Source of the DNA: a virus
Direction: 5' to 3' (one strand)
Virus record (IMG/VR): IMGVR_UViG_3300025120_000296
Span: 1 to 31,589 of that record
DNA: 31,589 bases
Shown piece by piece: positions 12,421-22,521 of this stretch (the stretch's first letter is position 1; each line of letters opens with the position of its first letter). The notes beneath the pieces were generated by a model that ran no database searches, was not told the origin of the DNA, and saw only the letters and a program-made list of their open reading frames with translations. A program made the translations under genes and the position numbers.

Positions 12421-15400
12421 ATGGCAGAGCAAACATTTAGATCTCCGGGTTTTTTCGAAAGAGAAGTTGATTTAACTCAGAGAACAGTAGAAATCGAAGG
12501 TGTACCTGCAGGAATTATTGGGACAGCTGTGCAAGGGCCAGCATTTGTACCCGTTACCCTAGGGTCTTTTGTAGATTTTGAAAGAAAATTTGGAACGCTA
12601 AACAAAGATCGTTTTGGGCCTTATGCTGTTAACGAGTGGCTAAAGAATAGAACAGCTGTTACTTACGTGAGAGTTTTAGGCGCCGGAGCGGCAAATTCCA
12701 CAGGTGACATACAGACGACACTATCACAAGGTACCGTTAAAAATGCAGGTTTTAGAATAAAAGGAACAGAAGTAGGTAGTGTTGCTGGCGCAAACGATAA
12801 AAGACATAAAGGTGGTGTACAGTTTATTGTTGCTGCACACGACACAAATGAGCTAGAACCGGCAGGATATCCACTTTTTACTGATAGCGATTCTTTTAAC
12901 ACTGCAACGTCGATAAGATTAATTCGTGCAATGTTGTTTACAGCAACTGGTTCGCGTCTTCAGATTCTTGATCATGACGCGTCATATTCAACGGCCAATG
13001 TCGCTGATGACTTAAGCAAGGTTAAAGATTACGACGGGACAAAAGAAGGCGGTACTTTTAAGTTAGTACTTTCTAGCGCATTAGGTGAATCTTACGGTAA
13101 CGACGATTCTAATCCAGGTATTAGAATATATACAGCCTCGTTAGATCCGAATAACAAATACTATATTTCTAGATTTTTAAACACAGACCCAGATAAATTT
13201 CACGAAGAACAGCATTTGTTGTACGCAGACTTTTCTGTTGAGAGTGAACTCGCGAGAGTAACATATAACGCGACAAAAGGTACAGTTGGTATTGCATCTG
13301 GATCTGCTGGTACAAGTTTAGCTAGCGGCGACACTAGCTTAACGTTTAGAGACGTATTTGGTAGGTTTGACACGCGTTATAAATCAGCAAAAACAACTGC
13401 TTTCATAACACAGCCTTTTGGTAGTAAAGAATACAACTTATTTCACTTTGAATCTTTAGATGACGGTGAAGTAAGCAATACAAGAGTAAAAATATCAATT
13501 GCAAACCTTAGAAGATCAACTAACGTAAAATCAAGTTACGGTACATTTTCTGTTTTAGTAAGGGACTACAACGATACAGATACTGATATGAAAATTCTTG
13601 AACAGTTTTCTTTGTGTACACTGGATCCAAGATCAGAAAATTATGTAGCTAACAAAATTGGCGATATGAAAGTTTACTTTAACTTTGATGCCGAGTCTGA
13701 GTCTGAAAGACGCATAAACGTTGAAGGTAAAAGACCAAATCGCTCTAGCTTTATAAGAATCGTTATGGATCGAAATGTTGAAGATCGATTAATACCAGAA
13801 GATTCTTTACCTTTCGGTTTCAGAGGACTTCCTTTATTAAAAACAAACGAAAGTTTGACTGATGATGACACTGTTTTGGAAGGTGGTAGTCGAAGACAAA
13901 GATTAGCACTAGAAGAAGGAACTGTTGGCGTTGCAAATGAATGCTTAACAGGATCGATTTTACCTCCTGTACCTTTTAGATTTAAAGTGACACGTGGCGC
14001 AGTTAACAAGGATTCAACACCAACATTTACTGGTGAACCGGGTTCTCTAGAATTAACAGACAGTAGATTCTTTTGGGGTGTAAAATTAGAAAGCTTACCT
14101 GTGACAGGAACAATAGGTGATGCAGTATTGCAATCGAATGCGTCATCAAACAAAAATAAGCTTGTTGAGAGTTATTCAAAGCTGCTAGGCATACAAAAGC
14201 TAGATGCACTGGTAACAGGTTCTGGTGCTGATAGTTTTAATAATAATAAGTTTACTTTAGCAAAAGTAGCACTTCACAATCAAATAGCACTTACTTCAAC
14301 AATTGAAGGTTCTATCGCTACTGCTATTACAGGAACAGCGTCGGAGCATATGAGAGAAGCAGCATACATTAGAAATGGTGTTAACGAAACCAAGAACTAT
14401 ACAATCACAGATGATGGTTCCACAGTTCACCAAAGAGTAACACTAGCGACTTTAGCTGCTGCACGAAGCGCAAAATACTTTAATAGATTTACTGACTTTG
14501 CAAAGTTTACAAATGTTTTCTACGGCGGCTTTGATGGGCTGAATATTCTTGATAAAGATAATAGGCTGATGAATGATCGAGCTAGCTCTGTTGCCGCAAA
14601 TGGAAAAGCAGACGTAAGTAATGGTACATATACACACCAAAATTTGCATGCAGACTCAAATGCAGGAAGTGGTAAAGATAATAATATTATTAACTCATAT
14701 AGAACAGCTGCTAGAATCATAACTGACCCTTTGGCATCTCGCGTCAATATCGTTGCTATACCTGGTATACGTGAGCCATTTGTTACTGATTTTGTTTCAG
14801 ACTTGACACGCGATTATAGCAAGGCAATATACTTAATGGATATTCCTTCGTTTACAGATCCTAACGCTAGTGGTGTCTCGACAAGAATATTTTCAAAAAC
14901 ACAAAGACCTAATGTTCAAGAAACAGTAGAAACATTTGAGGGGCGTGCCCTGGATAACAGTTATGTTTCCACATATTTTCCTGATGTTGTTTTTGCTGAT
15001 GATGAAAATAATACATCAGTTACTTTACCTTCATCAATTGCAGCTATAAAAGCTCTCGGCTTCAACGATGCAGTTGCATATCCTTGGTTTGCCCCAGCCG
15101 GCTTTAATCGTGGTGCGCTTAGTAATGTTCTAAATTCTAAAGTCAGACTAAATGCGGAAGATAGAAACATCTTATATGAGGCAAGAATAAATCCAATTGC
15201 AAACTTTCCAAATGGTGGGTTTGTGATATTTGGACAAAAAACATTACAACAGGATCGCTCAGCATTAGATAGAGTAAATGTAAGAAGAATGCTTTTAGAA
15301 GTAAAGCGAATCGTTTCAGAAATTGCCAACAGGTTAATTTTTGAGCAAAATACACCACAAACCCGTGCAAGATTTGTTGCTGAGGTAACACCACAACTAG

Positions 15401-15582
15401 CCACAATACAAGCACAACAAGGGGTTGACCAGTTTAAGGTAGTAATGGATTCTACGAATAACTCCTCACTAGACATCGAATCAAATCGTCTTAATGGGAG
15501 AATCGTCTTGGTTCCAACTCGTGCAGTAGAATTTATTGCAATCGATTTCATTATTACAAATTCAGGTGTAAGTTTCGAATAA
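12421..15582 (+). CDS. 18: Tail sheath protein, gp18-like, copy 1
   Basis: A 1053-residue contractile sheath subunit, against 659 in T4. ATG 12421 follows AGGAGAG. The N-terminal signature (FRSPGFFEREVDLTQR, VEGVPAGIIGTA-like, GPAFVPVTLGS, FGTLNKDRFGPYAVNEWL, TYVRVLGAGAA) and the C-terminal core (AYPWFAPAGFNRGAL, LYEARINPIANFPNGG, VIFGQKTLQ, ALDRVNVRRMLLEVKR, VPTRAVEFIAIDF) are those of phage sheaths; the C-terminal strands hook neighbouring subunits. The middle (about 120-750) is expanded and would form outer domains. It is followed after 22 bases by a second sheath gene. No sign of decay is seen. Confidence 0.95.
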   Translation: MAEQTFRSPGFFEREVDLTQRTVEIEGVPAGIIGTAVQGPAFVPVTLGSFVDFERKFGTLNKDRFGPYAVNEWLKNRTAVTYVRVLGAGAANSTGDIQTTLSQGTVKNAGFRIKGTEVGSVAGANDKRHKGGVQFIVAAHDTNELEPAGYPLFTDSDSFNTATSIRLIRAMLFTATGSRLQILDHDASYSTANVADDLSKVKDYDGTKEGGTFKLVLSSALGESYGNDDSNPGIRIYTASLDPNNKYYISRFLNTDPDKFHEEQHLLYADFSVESELARVTYNATKGTVGIASGSAGTSLASGDTSLTFRDVFGRFDTRYKSAKTTAFITQPFGSKEYNLFHFESLDDGEVSNTRVKISIANLRRSTNVKSSYGTFSVLVRDYNDTDTDMKILEQFSLCTLDPRSENYVANKIGDMKVYFNFDAESESERRINVEGKRPNRSSFIRIVMDRNVEDRLIPEDSLPFGFRGLPLLKTNESLTDDDTVLEGGSRRQRLALEEGTVGVANECLTGSILPPVPFRFKVTRGAVNKDSTPTFTGEPGSLELTDSRFFWGVKLESLPVTGTIGDAVLQSNASSNKNKLVESYSKLLGIQKLDALVTGSGADSFNNNKFTLAKVALHNQIALTSTIEGSIATAITGTASEHMREAAYIRNGVNETKNYTITDDGSTVHQRVTLATLAAARSAKYFNRFTDFAKFTNVFYGGFDGLNILDKDNRLMNDRASSVAANGKADVSNGTYTHQNLHADSNAGSGKDNNIINSYRTAARIITDPLASRVNIVAIPGIREPFVTDFVSDLTRDYSKAIYLMDIPSFTDPNASGVSTRIFSKTQRPNVQETVETFEGRALDNSYVSTYFPDVVFADDENNTSVTLPSSIAAIKALGFNDAVAYPWFAPAGFNRGALSNVLNSKVRLNAEDRNILYEARINPIANFPNGGFVIFGQKTLQQDRSALDRVNVRRMLLEVKRIVSEIANRLIFEQNTPQTRARFVAEVTPQLATIQAQQGVDQFKVVMDSTNNSSLDIESNRLNGRIVLVPTRAVEFIAIDFIITNSGVSFE

Positions 15583-15604: not shown

Positions 15605-18600
15605 ATGGCAGAAATAACATTTAAATCAGCTGGTGTAAAGACAAGAGAAATAGACCTTTCTCAACCAACCCGTGTTGGACCGGTTGGAGTACCTGCTGGT
15701 ATTGTTGGAACTTCAAACGAAGGTCCTGCTTTTGTTCCTTTAACGTTTGCAAACTATAGAGATTTTGTGACGACATTTGGCAGGTCTGATGGTGAAAAAT
15801 TTGGACCTATTGCTGTTAATCAATGGTTAGCTAACGCACAGGCAGTATCTTATATTCGTGTATTAGGAGCTGGTAATGGAAAACAAAGAAATACATCAAC
15901 AGGCAAAGTAACTAATGCAGGTTTTGTCGTAGGTGATAGAATAATTCAAGACAACGGAATTATTGGTAACAACTTTTACGCGACTGGCTCTATCGAAGGA
16001 AGAACTTACTTTCTTGGCTGCTTTATGTCAGAGTCAAACGGATCTACAATTTTTAGTGATGCAGGAATACAGAAAACGACAACAATAAGCGGTAAAAGAG
16101 CTACTGCAACCATAACAGTGACAGACGCGGGAGAGATTACTACAGGTAACCAGATATCGTTAGTTACAACTGCTGGTAATACAGTAACAATAACAGGACA
16201 TGCTGACACCAATGCCATGGCTGACACAACAGGCGCATCTACAAACGGAACTTTTGCAGCAAATACAACACTTTCTGGTGGTAGTTCGAACAATATTACC
16301 CAGGCTGCAGCCATTGCAGCTACTATTAATCTACATGATGATTTTACTGCGACTAACGGGGGCACTGCAACTGTAACAATAACACAAAACACTGGTGGGA
16401 CAGCAGGAAATGGTCGCGCAATTACTGTTGCTAAAAACGGTGGTGATGGAGATATTGAAGCACCTGGTGACTTAACTATAGTAAATTTCTCCGGAGGTAG
16501 TGACGGTAACCACGCTGTACCTATCCTTAGGGGTGTTTTACTTGCACCGAGCGGTGTAATTTTGCACTTAAGTGGTAATGCTACTGCTAACGGAAGCAAC
16601 GCGCCAACAAAAGGTATTTCTTCAATAGTAGCATCACCACAAGTTATGGGTCGTGAAGGTGCATTGACCGGTTCTGTCTCGTTGGCGTCACAAGAATTTG
16701 TAATGCTCTTAAATGGCTATAACAACACAGATGTCGCAAAAAAGACACACATTACGGCTTCTTTTGATATCACAGCACCAAATTATTTTGCAAATGTTTT
16801 CAACACAAACCCATTAAAAATAGAAGAAGAAGGTCATTTGTTGTATGGACACTATGATATACATCCTGACATAGCTGCTGTAACTGGTAGCGGTGCTGTT
16901 ACAGCGGGTGGTTTTTCTAAAGGTTGTGCTAACGGCAAAGACAAAGAAGATATCGCGTTGTTACTGACTTCTTCTGTGACTAGAGGTACAACAACTGCTA
17001 ACAAGCCAGTATATGAAGATTTTGAGGATCGTTTTAGTCATGCAAAGTCTCCTTTTGTTATATCACAAGATAATAAGAGTCTTTTTAGAGTCCATTTACT
17101 TTCTGCAGGTGCAGGTGTTTCAAGTAAGTACAAATTCTCAATTGAAAACTTAAGAAGATCGAATTCTTCCATAAACAAATATGGTACTTTTGATTTAATT
17201 GTTAGAGACTTTAACGATACAGATCAAGAACCTAAGTCACTCGAGTCATTTAGGGGTTTAAGTTTAGATCCTGCTTCAGATCGCTACATCGGTCGTGTTA
17301 TTGGTGACCAGCATACATTCTTTAATTTTGACGTAAATCAATCCAGTCAAAAAATAATCGTCGATGGATCGCATCCTGTTAGGTCAAGGTTTATAAGAGT
17401 TGAACTATCTGATGAAGTTGCAAATGGTACTGTTGAGAAAACTTCTTTACCTTTTGGTTTCAGAGGGCCGGATCATCTATTGACAAGTGGTGCTCTATTG
17501 TCGAACGAGGGTGACAACTATTACATAGCACCTGTTTTACAACTTGTGGAACCTCCTATTCCATACCGCGATACAGTTGCTCAAGGCGTTGGTATACAAA
17601 AACGATCAGATGGTAGACTATTTTGGGGTGTACAAACAACTAGAAAAACAAGTACAACTCAACCAAACTTAAACGGCCTTCAAGATAAATCTTTTAATAC
17701 TTTTGTCAAGCATTTTCCAAATCACAGAATTGATTTTCCTAGTTTCTCTGTAGGTAATAACCCAGGTGTCTCTGACGTCGCAGGTACAGTATTAGATTGC
17801 GACAGGTTTAATAATAATAAATTTACACTTAAGAACATCCTGGTAAGAACAGGATCAGATGGGAAAGCTGATCCGGAACAATGGTTAAGTGCGTCATACA
17901 AAAGAGCTGGAGGTATAGGCAGAAATGCTACAGATAAGACTCGTGCTTTTGAGATCACAGACTTAGATAAAGTTGCAAACGTTAAATTTGCCAAGTTTAC
18001 TTTTATTGCACAAGGTGGTTTTGATGGTATAAACATTTTTGATGAAGAAAAGTCCAAACTATCTAATACTGCGATACTTCGTGAAGTTGGTAATGATGAA
18101 AATAGTGCCGGGACAGGAAACAATACAGTTGGTGCTTATAGAAAAGCTATTGACATTATGAGTTCAAAAACTGATGTCGACATTCAAGTTCTTGCCGCAC
18201 CAGGTATTAGACACGCTTCTGTGACAGACTTTGCTACTCAAAAAATCGAAGATCGCTTTGACGCAATCTACTTAATGGATGTTGAAGAACGAGACCAACT
18301 TAATACTGTCATTACATCTTCAGTACAAAAACCTCACGTTCTTAATACAGTAACATCCTTTAAGGGACGTGCGCTTGATTCATCATTTGCAGCTGCATAT
18401 TTTCCAGACGTTATCTTAAATGATCCGGATACTAACACGCTTGTACAGGTACCACCATCAGTCGCAGTATTGGGTGCGTATTCACTTAACGATCGTGTCG
18501 CACATCCCTGGTTTGCACCAGCAGGTTTCGCAAGAGGAGCTTTAAATGCTGTAGAAATGGCATCTGTTCGACTTAATCGTACTAACTTAGACGACTTGTA

Positions 18601-19003
18601 TGAGGCAGATATCAATCCAATAACAGCTTTCCCGGGTACCGGTGTTACTATATGGGGGCAGAAAACTTTACAAGCAGCTAACTCTGCGCTTGATAGAATT
18701 AATGTAAGAAGATTGCTGATTGATGTAAGAAGGAAAGTAAAGAATGTTGCAAATTCTTTGTTATTTGAACCTAACAGAGAAGAAACACTCGAGAGGTTCA
18801 CTGCTTTAGTTAATCCAATTTTACAGAGAGTTCAAGAACAAAGTGGTATTGACAGGTATAAAGCAGTGATTGATACATCAACTACAACGCAAGCTGATGT
18901 AGAAAACAATACCATACGTGGAAAGATATTCTTGCAGCCCACACGTTCAGTTGAGTTTGTAGCACTAGATTTTGTTGTAACAAATGCTGGTTCAAATATT
19001 TAG
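15605..19003 (+). CDS. 18: Tail sheath protein, gp18-like, copy 2 with inserted domain
   Basis: A 1132-residue sheath paralog with a CGGAGAA ribosome site. Both terminal cores match copy 1: GVPAGIVGTSNEGPAFVPLT and YIRVLGAGN at the N-terminus; HPWFAPAGFARGAL, WGQKTLQ, ALDRINVRRLLIDVRRK and PTRSVEFVALDFVVTNAG at the C-terminus. Residues about 158-300 are a Thr/Ala/Gly-rich module absent at the matching place in copy 1, where FTDSDSFN runs straight into TSIRLIRAML. The module looks like a repeated beta domain known from marine phage virion proteins. Both copies are full length, so both may enter the sheath, or each may be used in a different part of it. Confidence 0.95.
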   Translation: MAEITFKSAGVKTREIDLSQPTRVGPVGVPAGIVGTSNEGPAFVPLTFANYRDFVTTFGRSDGEKFGPIAVNQWLANAQAVSYIRVLGAGNGKQRNTSTGKVTNAGFVVGDRIIQDNGIIGNNFYATGSIEGRTYFLGCFMSESNGSTIFSDAGIQKTTTISGKRATATITVTDAGEITTGNQISLVTTAGNTVTITGHADTNAMADTTGASTNGTFAANTTLSGGSSNNITQAAAIAATINLHDDFTATNGGTATVTITQNTGGTAGNGRAITVAKNGGDGDIEAPGDLTIVNFSGGSDGNHAVPILRGVLLAPSGVILHLSGNATANGSNAPTKGISSIVASPQVMGREGALTGSVSLASQEFVMLLNGYNNTDVAKKTHITASFDITAPNYFANVFNTNPLKIEEEGHLLYGHYDIHPDIAAVTGSGAVTAGGFSKGCANGKDKEDIALLLTSSVTRGTTTANKPVYEDFEDRFSHAKSPFVISQDNKSLFRVHLLSAGAGVSSKYKFSIENLRRSNSSINKYGTFDLIVRDFNDTDQEPKSLESFRGLSLDPASDRYIGRVIGDQHTFFNFDVNQSSQKIIVDGSHPVRSRFIRVELSDEVANGTVEKTSLPFGFRGPDHLLTSGALLSNEGDNYYIAPVLQLVEPPIPYRDTVAQGVGIQKRSDGRLFWGVQTTRKTSTTQPNLNGLQDKSFNTFVKHFPNHRIDFPSFSVGNNPGVSDVAGTVLDCDRFNNNKFTLKNILVRTGSDGKADPEQWLSASYKRAGGIGRNATDKTRAFEITDLDKVANVKFAKFTFIAQGGFDGINIFDEEKSKLSNTAILREVGNDENSAGTGNNTVGAYRKAIDIMSSKTDVDIQVLAAPGIRHASVTDFATQKIEDRFDAIYLMDVEERDQLNTVITSSVQKPHVLNTVTSFKGRALDSSFAAAYFPDVILNDPDTNTLVQVPPSVAVLGAYSLNDRVAHPWFAPAGFARGALNAVEMASVRLNRTNLDDLYEADINPITAFPGTGVTIWGQKTLQAANSALDRINVRRLLIDVRRKVKNVANSLLFEPNREETLERFTALVNPILQRVQEQSGIDRYKAVIDTSTTTQADVENNTIRGKIFLQPTRSVEFVALDFVVTNAGSNI

Positions 19004-19038: not shown

Positions 19039-19527
19039 ATGGCAGAAACACTTTCAGTCACAGATATGTTACCAAACAAGTTTGAGCCTAAAAGAAATTA
19101 TAGGTGGGTCCTTGCAATTGAAGGTATCGATGCTTTCTTGGTATCAGAAACACAAAGACCTACAATTACGATTGGAGACAAAAAAATTGACTTCATTAAC
19201 AGTTATCGTAACATTGCAGGTAAGCTAAGTTTTAGTGACATTACTGTAAAATTACATGACCCTATCGCCCCATCTGGCGCTCAGCAAGTCATGGAATGGA
19301 TTAGAACACATTACGAATCAGTCTCTGGCCGCGCAGGTTACGCTGACTTTTATAAGCGTGATTTACAATTAAAAATGCTGGATCCAGTGGGTACAGTTGT
19401 AGAACTTTGGGATATCAAAGGCGCATTTATTACATCAGCAAACTATGGTTCCTTAACTTATAGTGGCGATGATATTATGACAATTGACTTGACACTTAAA
19501 ATTGATAATTGTGTACTTCAATTCTAA
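19039..19527 (+). CDS. 19: Tail tube protein, gp19-like
   Basis: A 162-residue protein, against 163 in T4 gp19. AAGGAG lies 7 bases before ATG 19039. Typical features are LPNKFEPKRNYRWVLAIEGIDAF, the IDFINSYRNIAGK strand, DITVKLHDPIAPSGAQQVMEW and the C-terminal GDDIMTIDLTLKIDNCVL strand. It forms the rigid inner tube that the sheath drives through the host envelope. It follows the two sheath genes as gp19 follows gp18 in T4, and it ends at a strong terminator, fitting its high copy number. Confidence 0.95.
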   Translation: MAETLSVTDMLPNKFEPKRNYRWVLAIEGIDAFLVSETQRPTITIGDKKIDFINSYRNIAGKLSFSDITVKLHDPIAPSGAQQVMEWIRTHYESVSGRAGYADFYKRDLQLKMLDPVGTVVELWDIKGAFITSANYGSLTYSGDDIMTIDLTLKIDNCVLQF

Positions 19528-19601: not shown

Positions 19602-20402
19602 ATGAGCAACAATGCGCCAACAAAAAATGTGATGAAAGAGGACTTTGGATGGGAAATACCTGTTGAAACTGTGCCTTTACCATCGAAAGGAATTATATAT
19701 TCACCAGATTCAACACTGTATAATAGAGAAACTTTACAGATTAAGGCAATGACTGCACAAGAAGAAGATATCTTAGCCAGTCAAGCTTACATTAAAGAAG
19801 GTACAGTTGTACTAAATTTAATTAAATCATGTATAACTGACAAATCAATAGATGTTGACTCATTAATCGCAGGTGACAGAAATGCATTAATGGTTTCAAT
19901 TAGAATTACTGGATATGGACCGGAATACAATGTAGGCCATACATGTGTTAATTGTGGCAAGTCTAATCAAGTAACTGCTGATTTGTCACAACTTAGAATT
20001 AAAAGACTTAAAGAACCTCCAACTAAACTTGGCGAAAATATATTTTCTTTTAAACTACCTGTGACAGGTAAGACAGTAGACTTTAAATTTTTAAATGGTT
20101 ACGATAAAAAAGAATTAGCTATCAAAGAGAAAAGACTTAAAAGCATGGGTATTTACAGAGAACAACCTGTAACCTCTTACTTAGAAAATGTAATAGTATC
20201 AATTGATGGTGTCACAGACAAAAATAAAATAACACATTTTGTTAAAAATATGCCTGCACGGGATAGTAAAAAACTTAGAGATTATATGAAAGACCTCGAA
20301 CCTGGAATCGACATGTCTTGGAAGTACATCTGTGAAAGTTGTAATTCTGAAAACAACTTTAATATTCCAGTAACCCCCGAGTTTTTTTGGCCCAGTACAT
20401 AG
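19602..20402 (+). CDS. 26: Baseplate hub / tail assembly protein, gp26-like, with zinc-ribbon cysteines
   Basis: A 266-residue protein. ATG 19602 follows GAGGT; an in-frame ATG at 19569 lies inside the terminator. It has the T4 gp26-type pattern: PLPSKGIIYSPDS, IKAMTAQEEDIL, IKSCITDKSIDVDSLIAGDRNALMVSIRI. A four-Cys set, C115-x2-C118 and C244-x2-C247, could hold one zinc ion. The gene ends TPEFFWPST-stop over a run of seven T (20382-20388), which may move some ribosomes to the next frame (see 20382). The place between tail tube and tape measure is where many tailed phages code a frameshifted tail assembly chaperone, which suggests this protein has that role as well as, or instead of, a hub role. 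Confidence 0.85.
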   Translation: MSNNAPTKNVMKEDFGWEIPVETVPLPSKGIIYSPDSTLYNRETLQIKAMTAQEEDILASQAYIKEGTVVLNLIKSCITDKSIDVDSLIAGDRNALMVSIRITGYGPEYNVGHTCVNCGKSNQVTADLSQLRIKRLKEPPTKLGENIFSFKLPVTGKTVDFKFLNGYDKKELAIKEKRLKSMGIYREQPVTSYLENVIVSIDGVTDKNKITHFVKNMPARDSKKLRDYMKDLEPGIDMSWKYICESCNSENNFNIPVTPEFFWPST

Positions 20403-20454
20403 CTGGAGAGAAGAAATCCTAGAGGAATTCTTCGCCCTGCAGCTCCACCTCAAT
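20382..20454 (+). other. Candidate frameshift site joining the gp26-like gene to the downstream ORF
   Basis: In the gp26-like frame the codons are GAG TTT TTT TGG CCC AGT ACA TAG. Moving +1 (or -2) at the T7 run reads GGC CCA GTA CAT AGC TGG AGA GAA and continues openly to 20643. The bridge, GPVHSWREEILEEFFALQLHLN in parts, looks like real protein. No ATG, GTG or TTG occurs in that frame before ATG 20455. Confidence 0.6.
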
Positions 20455-20643
20455 ATGTCATACTCAGAGGTTCACCGGTTACCGATACGATACAGGCGTT
20501 GGTATCTGCGCCGTCTTGTCAAACATTTTGAAGTTCAAAATGAAAAAATCGGTAACAGTAACACCGACAACACAACTGTAAATAAACACGACGCGTCAAA
20601 CTTTGATCAGTTTCAAAAACAAGTAAAAAGTAAGTTTAGATAG
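20455..20643 (+). CDS. Downstream half of a probable frameshifted tail assembly chaperone
   Basis: The ATG-bounded part is 62 residues, starting MSYSEVHRLPIRYRRWYLRRL. There is no ribosome site before ATG 20455 (the upstream bases are CTCCACCTCAAT), and the same frame is open back to 20374. With the upstream 22 residues the reading becomes WREEILEEFFALQLHL then SYSEVHRLPIRYRRWYLRRL, the pattern (helix, Y-x-E/D-V-x-x-L/M-P-I, aromatic/basic helix) that I recall from ORFs following gp26-type genes in T4-like phages. I therefore infer production as a C-terminal extension: 262 + 84 residues, about 346 in all. A separate weakly started small protein is the alternative. Confidence 0.75.
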   Translation: MSYSEVHRLPIRYRRWYLRRLVKHFEVQNEKIGNSNTDNTTVNKHDASNFDQFQKQVKSKFR

Positions 20644-20673: not shown

Positions 20674-22521
20674 ATGACAGATGAAGATATCATAAAGGCA
20701 ATTACAGAAGGTTTTGCCACAGTGGCGCGTGCTGAAAAAGAACGAGAAATTGATGTTTCTGATGACGGTAGTGAGCCGACATTCCGGAGGGCAGAGCCTC
20801 AACGAAAAGGCGAATCGAATGAAGATTACGCTAAACGAGTTAAGGAAGTATCAAACTCCCTCACCGGTATTGCAGGTGGCTTAGCTGGTGTAATGGCAAA
20901 GTCTACAAAAGCAGGGCTTAATTATATAGTTAAGCAAAATAAATTTCTTGAAACACAATTAAGCTTTGTTCGAACATCCCAGGAAGCATATGGTGGTCTT
21001 ACAGATGAATATTTACGGAGTGGAGAGGCAATTGAGGGCTTGGTAGGTCACTCGATAACAGCAAAGAAGGAATTAATGCTTTCTGCAGCTGGAGGTAAAG
21101 AAGCAGCATTGCAAATTGCTGATGGTGCATTCCAAGGTCAAAACGTAATGGCCATTGTGTTTGATGACATCGCTAGAGGTGCTAATTTATATGAGGAAAC
21201 TCTTTCCGCTGCTGCAAGTCAAAACTCTAATTTAGCTAATTCAATGAAGACTTTAGGCGATGAAGAGATGGTCAGAGTTGCCGCTTTACGAGAAAGAATG
21301 GACATTGATACACTAGAGATGCAAAATATGTTAGAACGACAATATGCATTCACTGGTGAGGCCTCGTCAAAAATATTTGAAGACATTGGTGCAGTCTCGG
21401 TAGAACTGTCAAAAACAACAGGTGTCTCAGCGATGGACTTAAAAGACGGCATTGTTGAGATCATGGAGGATGTTGACAATTTTGGTAACATAGGTGTTGA
21501 TTCAGCTGCTAGGATAGCTGCTTCATTAAAACAGTTAGGCGTTGATTTTAGAACTTTTCAAGGCATGACTAGTCAATTTATGAACTTTGAAACCGCAGCC
21601 GGTAAAATGGGTGAATTGTCTGCATTATTTGGTGTTCAGATGGATGCTATGGAAATGACATATCTCGCCAATGAAGATCAAGAAGAATTCTTATTTAGAA
21701 TGCGAGAAAACTTACTAGACTCCGGTGTTGATGTTGAGAATATGTCAAAAACCAGACAAAGATATCTTGCTGACCAGATTGGCATTGACGTCAAACAGCT
21801 GCAAACTTTTATGCGTGGTGATGAGGTAACAGACCAAGCGGACATGTTTTCAGCAACAGAGTCAGCAGAAGGCCTGGATGGTTTTTCAACGTCAATTGAG
21901 AATTTTGGTGGCGCAATGAAAGGTTTAAATAAAGATATGGCACAAATAGCAAAAGCCGCCAACGCTCAAATGTTTATACCTATGCAAACTGGAATGATGA
22001 ATTTAAAGAAAGCAGGTGAGGACGCAAATGCAGCAATGCAGCCGAAAATTTCTCAAGAAAACATAGATCTTTTGCAAACATCTATAGACGCAGAAATTAA
22101 AATTTTTGAAGAAATGGTGATACCTCCTTTAGAGATTTCGATGGATTTTGTAGAAGGAAAATCTGGTGATATCGGCGGCATGTTAAATAAAATGTTAAGT
22201 GGCGGAGGTCAAGCTGATGTATTTCTTGATGCCCACGTTAATGTTAGTGCATTAAAACTTGCAGCTGATGATGTGTCGAATCTAACCATTGAGCTAAGAA
22301 AGCTTGCGGATGCAAATACTGAAAAAAACCAAAAAGATATAAAAGAATTACTAGAAAATGCAAAAGTTCAACAAACGACATTAGAAAGAGTAATAACGTC
22401 AATGGATTCTAATCAGCCTATTTCAATTAGAATAGACACTGATATGGATGGATTGGCTGACAAAGTATTTACCATTAAAGAAACGCAACAAGGCGGTAAG
22501 TTTGTGATCGTAAAGGATTGA
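20674..22521 (+). CDS. 29: Tape measure protein, gp29-like
   Basis: A 615-residue protein, near the 590 of T4 gp29, with GGTGGAG before the ATG. It is mainly alpha-helical and Ala/Met/Glu-rich. It has an N-terminal charged region (1-55), a hydrophobic Gly/Ala segment near 58-80 (LTGIAGGLAGVMAKS) and long helices with many Phe and Met residues (about 200-420). A short beta-type end (PISIRIDTDMDGLADKVF) follows. It lies after the gp26-like gene and its frameshift ORF, the usual place for a tape measure. At roughly 0.15 nm per residue it would set a tail near 90 nm; that is a rule of thumb. Confidence 0.85.
   Translation: MTDEDIIKAITEGFATVARAEKEREIDVSDDGSEPTFRRAEPQRKGESNEDYAKRVKEVSNSLTGIAGGLAGVMAKSTKAGLNYIVKQNKFLETQLSFVRTSQEAYGGLTDEYLRSGEAIEGLVGHSITAKKELMLSAAGGKEAALQIADGAFQGQNVMAIVFDDIARGANLYEETLSAAASQNSNLANSMKTLGDEEMVRVAALRERMDIDTLEMQNMLERQYAFTGEASSKIFEDIGAVSVELSKTTGVSAMDLKDGIVEIMEDVDNFGNIGVDSAARIAASLKQLGVDFRTFQGMTSQFMNFETAAGKMGELSALFGVQMDAMEMTYLANEDQEEFLFRMRENLLDSGVDVENMSKTRQRYLADQIGIDVKQLQTFMRGDEVTDQADMFSATESAEGLDGFSTSIENFGGAMKGLNKDMAQIAKAANAQMFIPMQTGMMNLKKAGEDANAAMQPKISQENIDLLQTSIDAEIKIFEEMVIPPLEISMDFVEGKSGDIGGMLNKMLSGGGQADVFLDAHVNVSALKLAADDVSNLTIELRKLADANTEKNQKDIKELLENAKVQQTTLERVITSMDSNQPISIRIDTDMDGLADKVFTIKETQQGGKFVIVKD

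Follow-up and report, generated by a model that had tools for sequence, protein, structure and literature searches.

The window, by which we mean the whole 31.6 kb stretch of DNA analysed here, is a virus record with T4-like head and tail genes in the order major head protein, two sheath-like genes, gp19-like tube, gp26-like gene and probable tape measure gene. The two tail sheath-like genes are long and adjoin each other (12421-15582, 1053 aa, and 15605-19003, 1132 aa); both match phrog_23 and phrog_10581. The gp19-like tail tube gene (19039-19527, plus strand), which matches phrog_4542 (E = 9e-28) and PF06841 (E = 1e-6), is the upstream neighbour of the gp26-like gene (19602-20402, plus strand). 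The downstream neighbour (20674-22521, plus strand) matched no family in PHROGs or Pfam; it is probably the tape measure gene, as judged from its position and from the annotation of the gene at the equivalent position in Flavobacterium phage immuto and Bacillus phage SP-15.

The gp26-like gene encodes a protein of 266 aa that matches PF12322 (E = 2e-18; 67.3 bits versus a Pfam gathering score of 24.5) and phrog_150 (E = 2e-22). Its open reading frame reaches back to ATG 19569; we infer that translation starts at ATG 19602, which has GAGG upstream. The AlphaFold model of the protein has a pLDDT of 91, and the two domains of the fused product described below were modelled separately. Foldseek alone, used with the gp26-like model, gave no significant PDB match, and a PDB sequence search with a profile of the fused protein found none. 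The best PDB match of the N-domain model (residues 2-109) was the HK97 tail assembly chaperone 2ob9 (Z 5.7, rmsd 7.3, 90 residues aligned), followed by YqbN 3klu (Z 5.6) and then by a match with Z 3.0. With a Z of 5.7 we have moderate confidence that the first domain has the predicted tail assembly chaperone fold (HK97 gp13 type). These matches to solved chaperones support the sequence-only reading, in which the locus had been taken for a chaperone-type gene pair.

The gp26 frame ends in GAG TTT TTT TGG CCC AGT ACA TAG, where the TTTTTTT run is at 20382-20388, the candidate slippery site TTT TTT TGG C at 20382-20391 (plus strand) and the zero-frame stop TAG at 20400-20402 (plus strand). It had been noted before that the frame stops soon after the run; the distance is 11 bases rather than the 10 then given. 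The +1 frame is open from 20374 to 20643 (89 codons), as had also been reported, and it contains no ATG, GTG or TTG upstream of ATG 20455, which itself lacks a Shine-Dalgarno motif. What follows the site in this frame (20389-20643, plus strand, 84 codons and a stop), here called ORF2, would encode the second domain of the chaperone; open frame, pN/pS and a profile match all point to it. Taken alone, the window is only modestly unusual in this respect: the +1 frame stays open for 240 nt past the gp26 stop (p about 0.0045, order-1 Markov shuffles).

The gp26-like protein, searched against viral contigs, retrieved 80 loci, in which a homologue of ORF2 in the +1 frame overlaps the gp26 end wherever the 3' end is present, locus L078 being a clear exception. 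With searches from Flavobacterium phage immuto and P-SSM2 and with annotated phages added, 251 loci were classified under one uniform rule. In the window's group all loci (72/72) have a +1 frame that runs on beyond the stop, and in the immuto group 79 of 81 do (L245 and L247 were scored neither way). In the cyanophage group the -1 frame is open in 80/82, the other two being incomplete loci, and the +1 frame in none. Among representative loci of the first two groups, 49/49 and 34/34 have a +1 frame that continues beyond the gp26 stop; the -1 frame does so in 1/49 and 1/34. The openness of the +1 frame across relatives is far beyond chance. The same arrangement occurs in Microcystis phage Mel-JY01, Streptococcus phage vB_SagM-GXN1, Bacillus phage SP-15 and Listeria phage LIS04, and in the Streptomyces phages BRock and Alone3. 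In a later test with 15 loci from bacterial assemblies, 14 of which reach the junction, in 14/14 the +1 frame continued for 172 nt or more beyond the stop and the -1 frame for 104 nt at most; the site read TTT TTT TGG CCT, TTC TTT TGG, TTT TTT TTC or TTC TTT CGG in 13 of the 14, and for L279, also among them, the sequence examined starts 3' of the site.

The +1 loci of the lineage number 157, with 119 distinct junctions, isolate genomes included. A sequencing error or a decayed gene, for which nothing speaks beyond the fact that the window by itself is a single contig, has a negligible probability when the same frame break recurs in all these junctions and purifying selection continues after it. 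The selection is seen in codons 4-25 after the site, the bridge, most of which precedes ATG 20455: in the +1 frame pN/pS is 0.15 (28 close pairs) or 0.18 (204 pairs), as compared with 1.4-4.7 in the other two frames. The first codons of the frame, previously said to read like protein, are thus conserved as protein, the opposite of what had been named as grounds for giving up the idea.

ORF2 could also be a separate gene translated from an internal start, either from a ribosome site of its own or by coupling to the gp26 stop. Many relatives do have an in-frame ATG about 43-58 nt beyond the gp26 stop, at 20455 in the window, but its position is not conserved and a Shine-Dalgarno motif precedes it in only 5/50 representatives of the window's group and 4/35 of the immuto group. 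At the gp26 start the motif is found in 25/50 and 8/36, respectively, so that the lack of a start for ORF2 is a strong test in the window's group and a weak one in the immuto group. The consistent ribosome site that the sequence-only reading had asked for as proof of two separate genes did not turn up in the relatives. In addition, the first predicted helix of ORF2 (residues 5-21) is encoded upstream of ATG 20455, and initiation there would therefore drop the conserved WREE..LE helix, which is under selection in the +1 frame. An internal start would furthermore leave unexplained the conserved TTT-Y at the gene end, described next. We consider it highly unlikely.

In 156 of the 157 +1 loci the last 12 codons of the gp26 frame include an in-frame TTT with T or C as the next base, versus 4.6% of background windows. 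In the window's group every representative (50/50) has TTT as the second Phe codon of the site, whereas elsewhere TTT makes up 0.81 and TTC 19% (chance about 2e-5). For the immuto group the site frequently has a Leu codon in second position, with CTT counted 20 times and CTA once; TTA and TTG are absent from the site, yet they account for 58% of Leu codons. CTT-T is the sequence on which the ribosome slips in prfB. At the slip, nearly all +1 members have TGG as the A-site codon. Immediately 5' of the first Phe codon a T is uncommon (10/53; 0/36 in the immuto group). Forms of the site include TTCTTTTGG in a relative and TTTCTTTGG in immuto, and the +1 arrangement is kept with TTC-TTT-TGG, TTT-CTT-TGG, TTT-CTA-TGG, TTC-TTT-CGT and CTG-TTT-CGC. 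The region around WREE is conserved among relatives, as had been expected; the unbroken T run, expected likewise, is missing in some members (TTC-TTT, TTT-CTT), which retain TTT-Y.

Two gene ends of other kinds count against the frameshift proposed below. In L097 (Alishewanella phage Slicko01) the gp26 homologue ends without FFWP or TTT-Y, and the +1 frame is open for 133 nt beyond the stop. In L267 (2075-3599), a distant homologue, the second ORF lies in +1, with no clear TTT-Y at the usual place.

The site variants bear on which of two ways of entering the same frame is used. A shift by +1 or by -2 on the T run had been proposed; of the two the evidence favours +1. A Mu-like -2 shift on the seven T, which would give EFFFGP in place of EFFGP, allows perfect re-pairing in the window and in the other members with TTT-TTT-TGG. 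The five variants just listed, however, keep the +1 arrangement although they do not permit -2 re-pairing, which is accordingly not possible in all members, and the prfB-like preference for CTT-T in the immuto group fits +1. A -2 shift is thus very unlikely. The forms TTC-TTT, TTT-CTT and TTT-CTA at the same time argue against slippage of RNA polymerase, by which some mRNAs would be one base shorter and the frames joined without a ribosomal slip. The T7 run of the window and of most of its group would be suited to it, but the arrangement persists where the run is broken (TTCTTTT, TTTCTTT, TTTCTAT) and the codon phase matters, TTT being in frame. We give polymerase slippage a very small probability, below that of an internal start.

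Downstream of the site, at a spacing of 12 nt, lies a candidate stimulator, an RNA stem-loop at 20401-20444 (plus strand) with a folding z of -2.65. Among 23 relatives its covariation score is 0.307, as compared with 0.203 ± 0.014 for shuffled alignments (0/500) and at most 0.172 when the stem is slid. RNAalifold recovered the inner stem with 4 compensated pairs from 14 near relatives; from the broader alignment of 23 sequences, the one on which the covariation score was obtained, it gave no consensus fold. Downstream RNA structure is also scant in the immuto group, so at best the stem is specific to a lineage. In the P-SSM2-group loci, predicted RNA structure 6-66 nt past the -1 site is above expectation (mean z -2.4). 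Scans of the window found no Rfam family and no tRNA.

We propose that a programmed +1 frameshift joins a T4-gp26-type tail assembly chaperone to a C-terminal domain, so that, as with lambda G/GT, the chaperone would be made in two lengths; from the sequence comparisons we put the probability at about 0.88. Most ribosomes would terminate at TAG 20400 and yield the short form of 266 aa. With UUU (20385-20387) in the P site and UGG waiting, tRNA-Phe, for which a forward move of one base from UUU to UUY still allows pairing, would in some cases re-pair on UUU (20386-20388). The next codon would then be GGC (20389-20391), and reading on to 20643 would give a long form of 346 aa, counted from ATG 19602, with an extra helical domain. 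The stem-loop probably aids the slip. The short part may bind the tape measure protein, and the added domain may recruit tube subunits.

Searches with ORF2 in Pfam and PHROGs gave nothing usable, including no direct match to phrog_634 (the C-domain of T4 gp51), and its model had no convincing match in the PDB. By profile-profile comparison ORF2 matches the short gp51 of cyanophages with 92% probability, and this protein in turn matches the C-end of T4 gp51 with 93% probability. The short gp51 of P-SSM2 and KVP40 match phrog_634.

The gp26 genes of KVP40, cyanophages and Rhizobium phages (L093, L094, L095, L098, L102 and the P-SSM2-group loci L106-L185) end in T TTT TTY, and the ORF of the short gp51 extends back across the gp26 stop in the -1 frame; the two are annotated as separate genes. 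It is likely from these sequences that here gp26 and short gp51 are joined by a -1 frameshift. The jumbo phages Atu_ph07, PA5oct, XacN1 and RAS14 and one uncultured phage (L091, L092, L096, L100, L090) share this -1 arrangement, again with T TTT TTY. Nearly all -1 members carry T TTT TTY, Pseudomonas phage Cygsa01 being an exception. These arrangements suggest that the wider gp26 family commonly uses frameshifting, be it +1 or -1. A single origin of the split into +1 and -1 was not rejected (p-AU 0.177), and we therefore do not claim repeated switches of direction.

In L078 (2674-4468), the exception named above, gp26-like copies stand in tandem. The first ends in TTC TTC TGG and has lost the slippery TTT, and the second, directly after it, continues in frame into an ORF2-like domain. 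The pair presumably arose by duplication, copy B having diverged; when the L078 fusion and both domains were aligned together, the first domain aligned poorly, and this alignment was left out. In T4, gp51 consists of PF12322 (residues 1-201) followed by the short-gp51 domain, and the adjoining gp26 of PF12322 alone, which suggests that the two T4 genes are an alternative to frameshifting by duplication and fusion. Both cases fit a need for a short and a long chaperone, frameshifting being one route to it. As a general rule, which we hold to be reasonably probable, U-rich slips would run both ways by lineage (-1 on U UUU UUY, +1 on UUU-Y), the +1 slip with the sense codon UGG in the A site and in some members with the aid of a 3' stem-loop, and at least two lineages (T4, L078) would instead carry two copies of the gene, one of them fused in frame.

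What is new is that +1 frameshifting at a defined site appears to be kept across a T4-related phage lineage that is both large and diverse; it had earlier been suspected in one archaeal virus. In the literature searched we found no report of +1 in the gp26-type chaperone family. The annotation can also be corrected: Microcystis phage Mel-JY01 has ORF2 listed as a hypothetical protein in its own right, and in other phages it is overlooked or put in the wrong place.

In textbooks, the frameshifts of tail assembly chaperone genes are -1 events, or -2 as in Mu. With lambda G/GT and its -1 analogues the locus shares a start-less second ORF that overlaps the end of the first in another frame, is conserved in relatives and would be joined to it by slippage at conserved codons in the overlap; it also shares the predicted chaperone fold of the first domain and probably the place between tube and tape measure, the tape measure gene being assigned here by position and by annotation in relatives. 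It differs in the family, T4 gp26 (PF12322), and in the direction: the canonical X XXY YYZ heptamer, which leads into the -1 frame, is not required, the base ahead of the first Phe codon usually being other than T, and the second ORF lies in +1 in 157 loci. The cyanophages, KVP40 and the jumbo phages have a homologous gp26 (97% profile probability) and a homologous second ORF (92%, see above), but in -1 with T TTT TTY; in some of them an ATG lies close to the gp26 stop. In Pseudomonas phage Adele and its relatives short and long chaperones likewise come from a single locus with a poly-T site, but by a -1 frameshift, at GTTTTT; poly-T -1 sites are also cited there for T4-like phages (PMC12846349).

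Different tailed phages use -1, -2 or +1, and for the tail-assembly frameshift of the haloarchaeal myovirus HSTV-2, a single case, +1 was judged "very likely" in a review (PMC5009743). At the +1 sites of prfB and of Listeria phage PSA the P-site tRNA slips on CUU-U or on a repetitive codon, and PSA cps has a 3' pseudoknot together with a sense codon (PMC10885494, PMC5009743). Unlike prfB and Listeria tsh, which have a stop codon in the A site, the sites described here have UGG, and the Listeria products are structural proteins.

T4 gp26 and gp51 belong to the same protein family, and T4 gp51 carries PF12322 together with the C-domain. To judge from the title of a 2022 paper by Vladimirov et al., T4-like phages reportedly make two tail assembly chaperones by a mechanism other than frameshifting. 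In T4 the two are separate genes on opposite strands, whereas in the window one gene with a frameshift would supply both.
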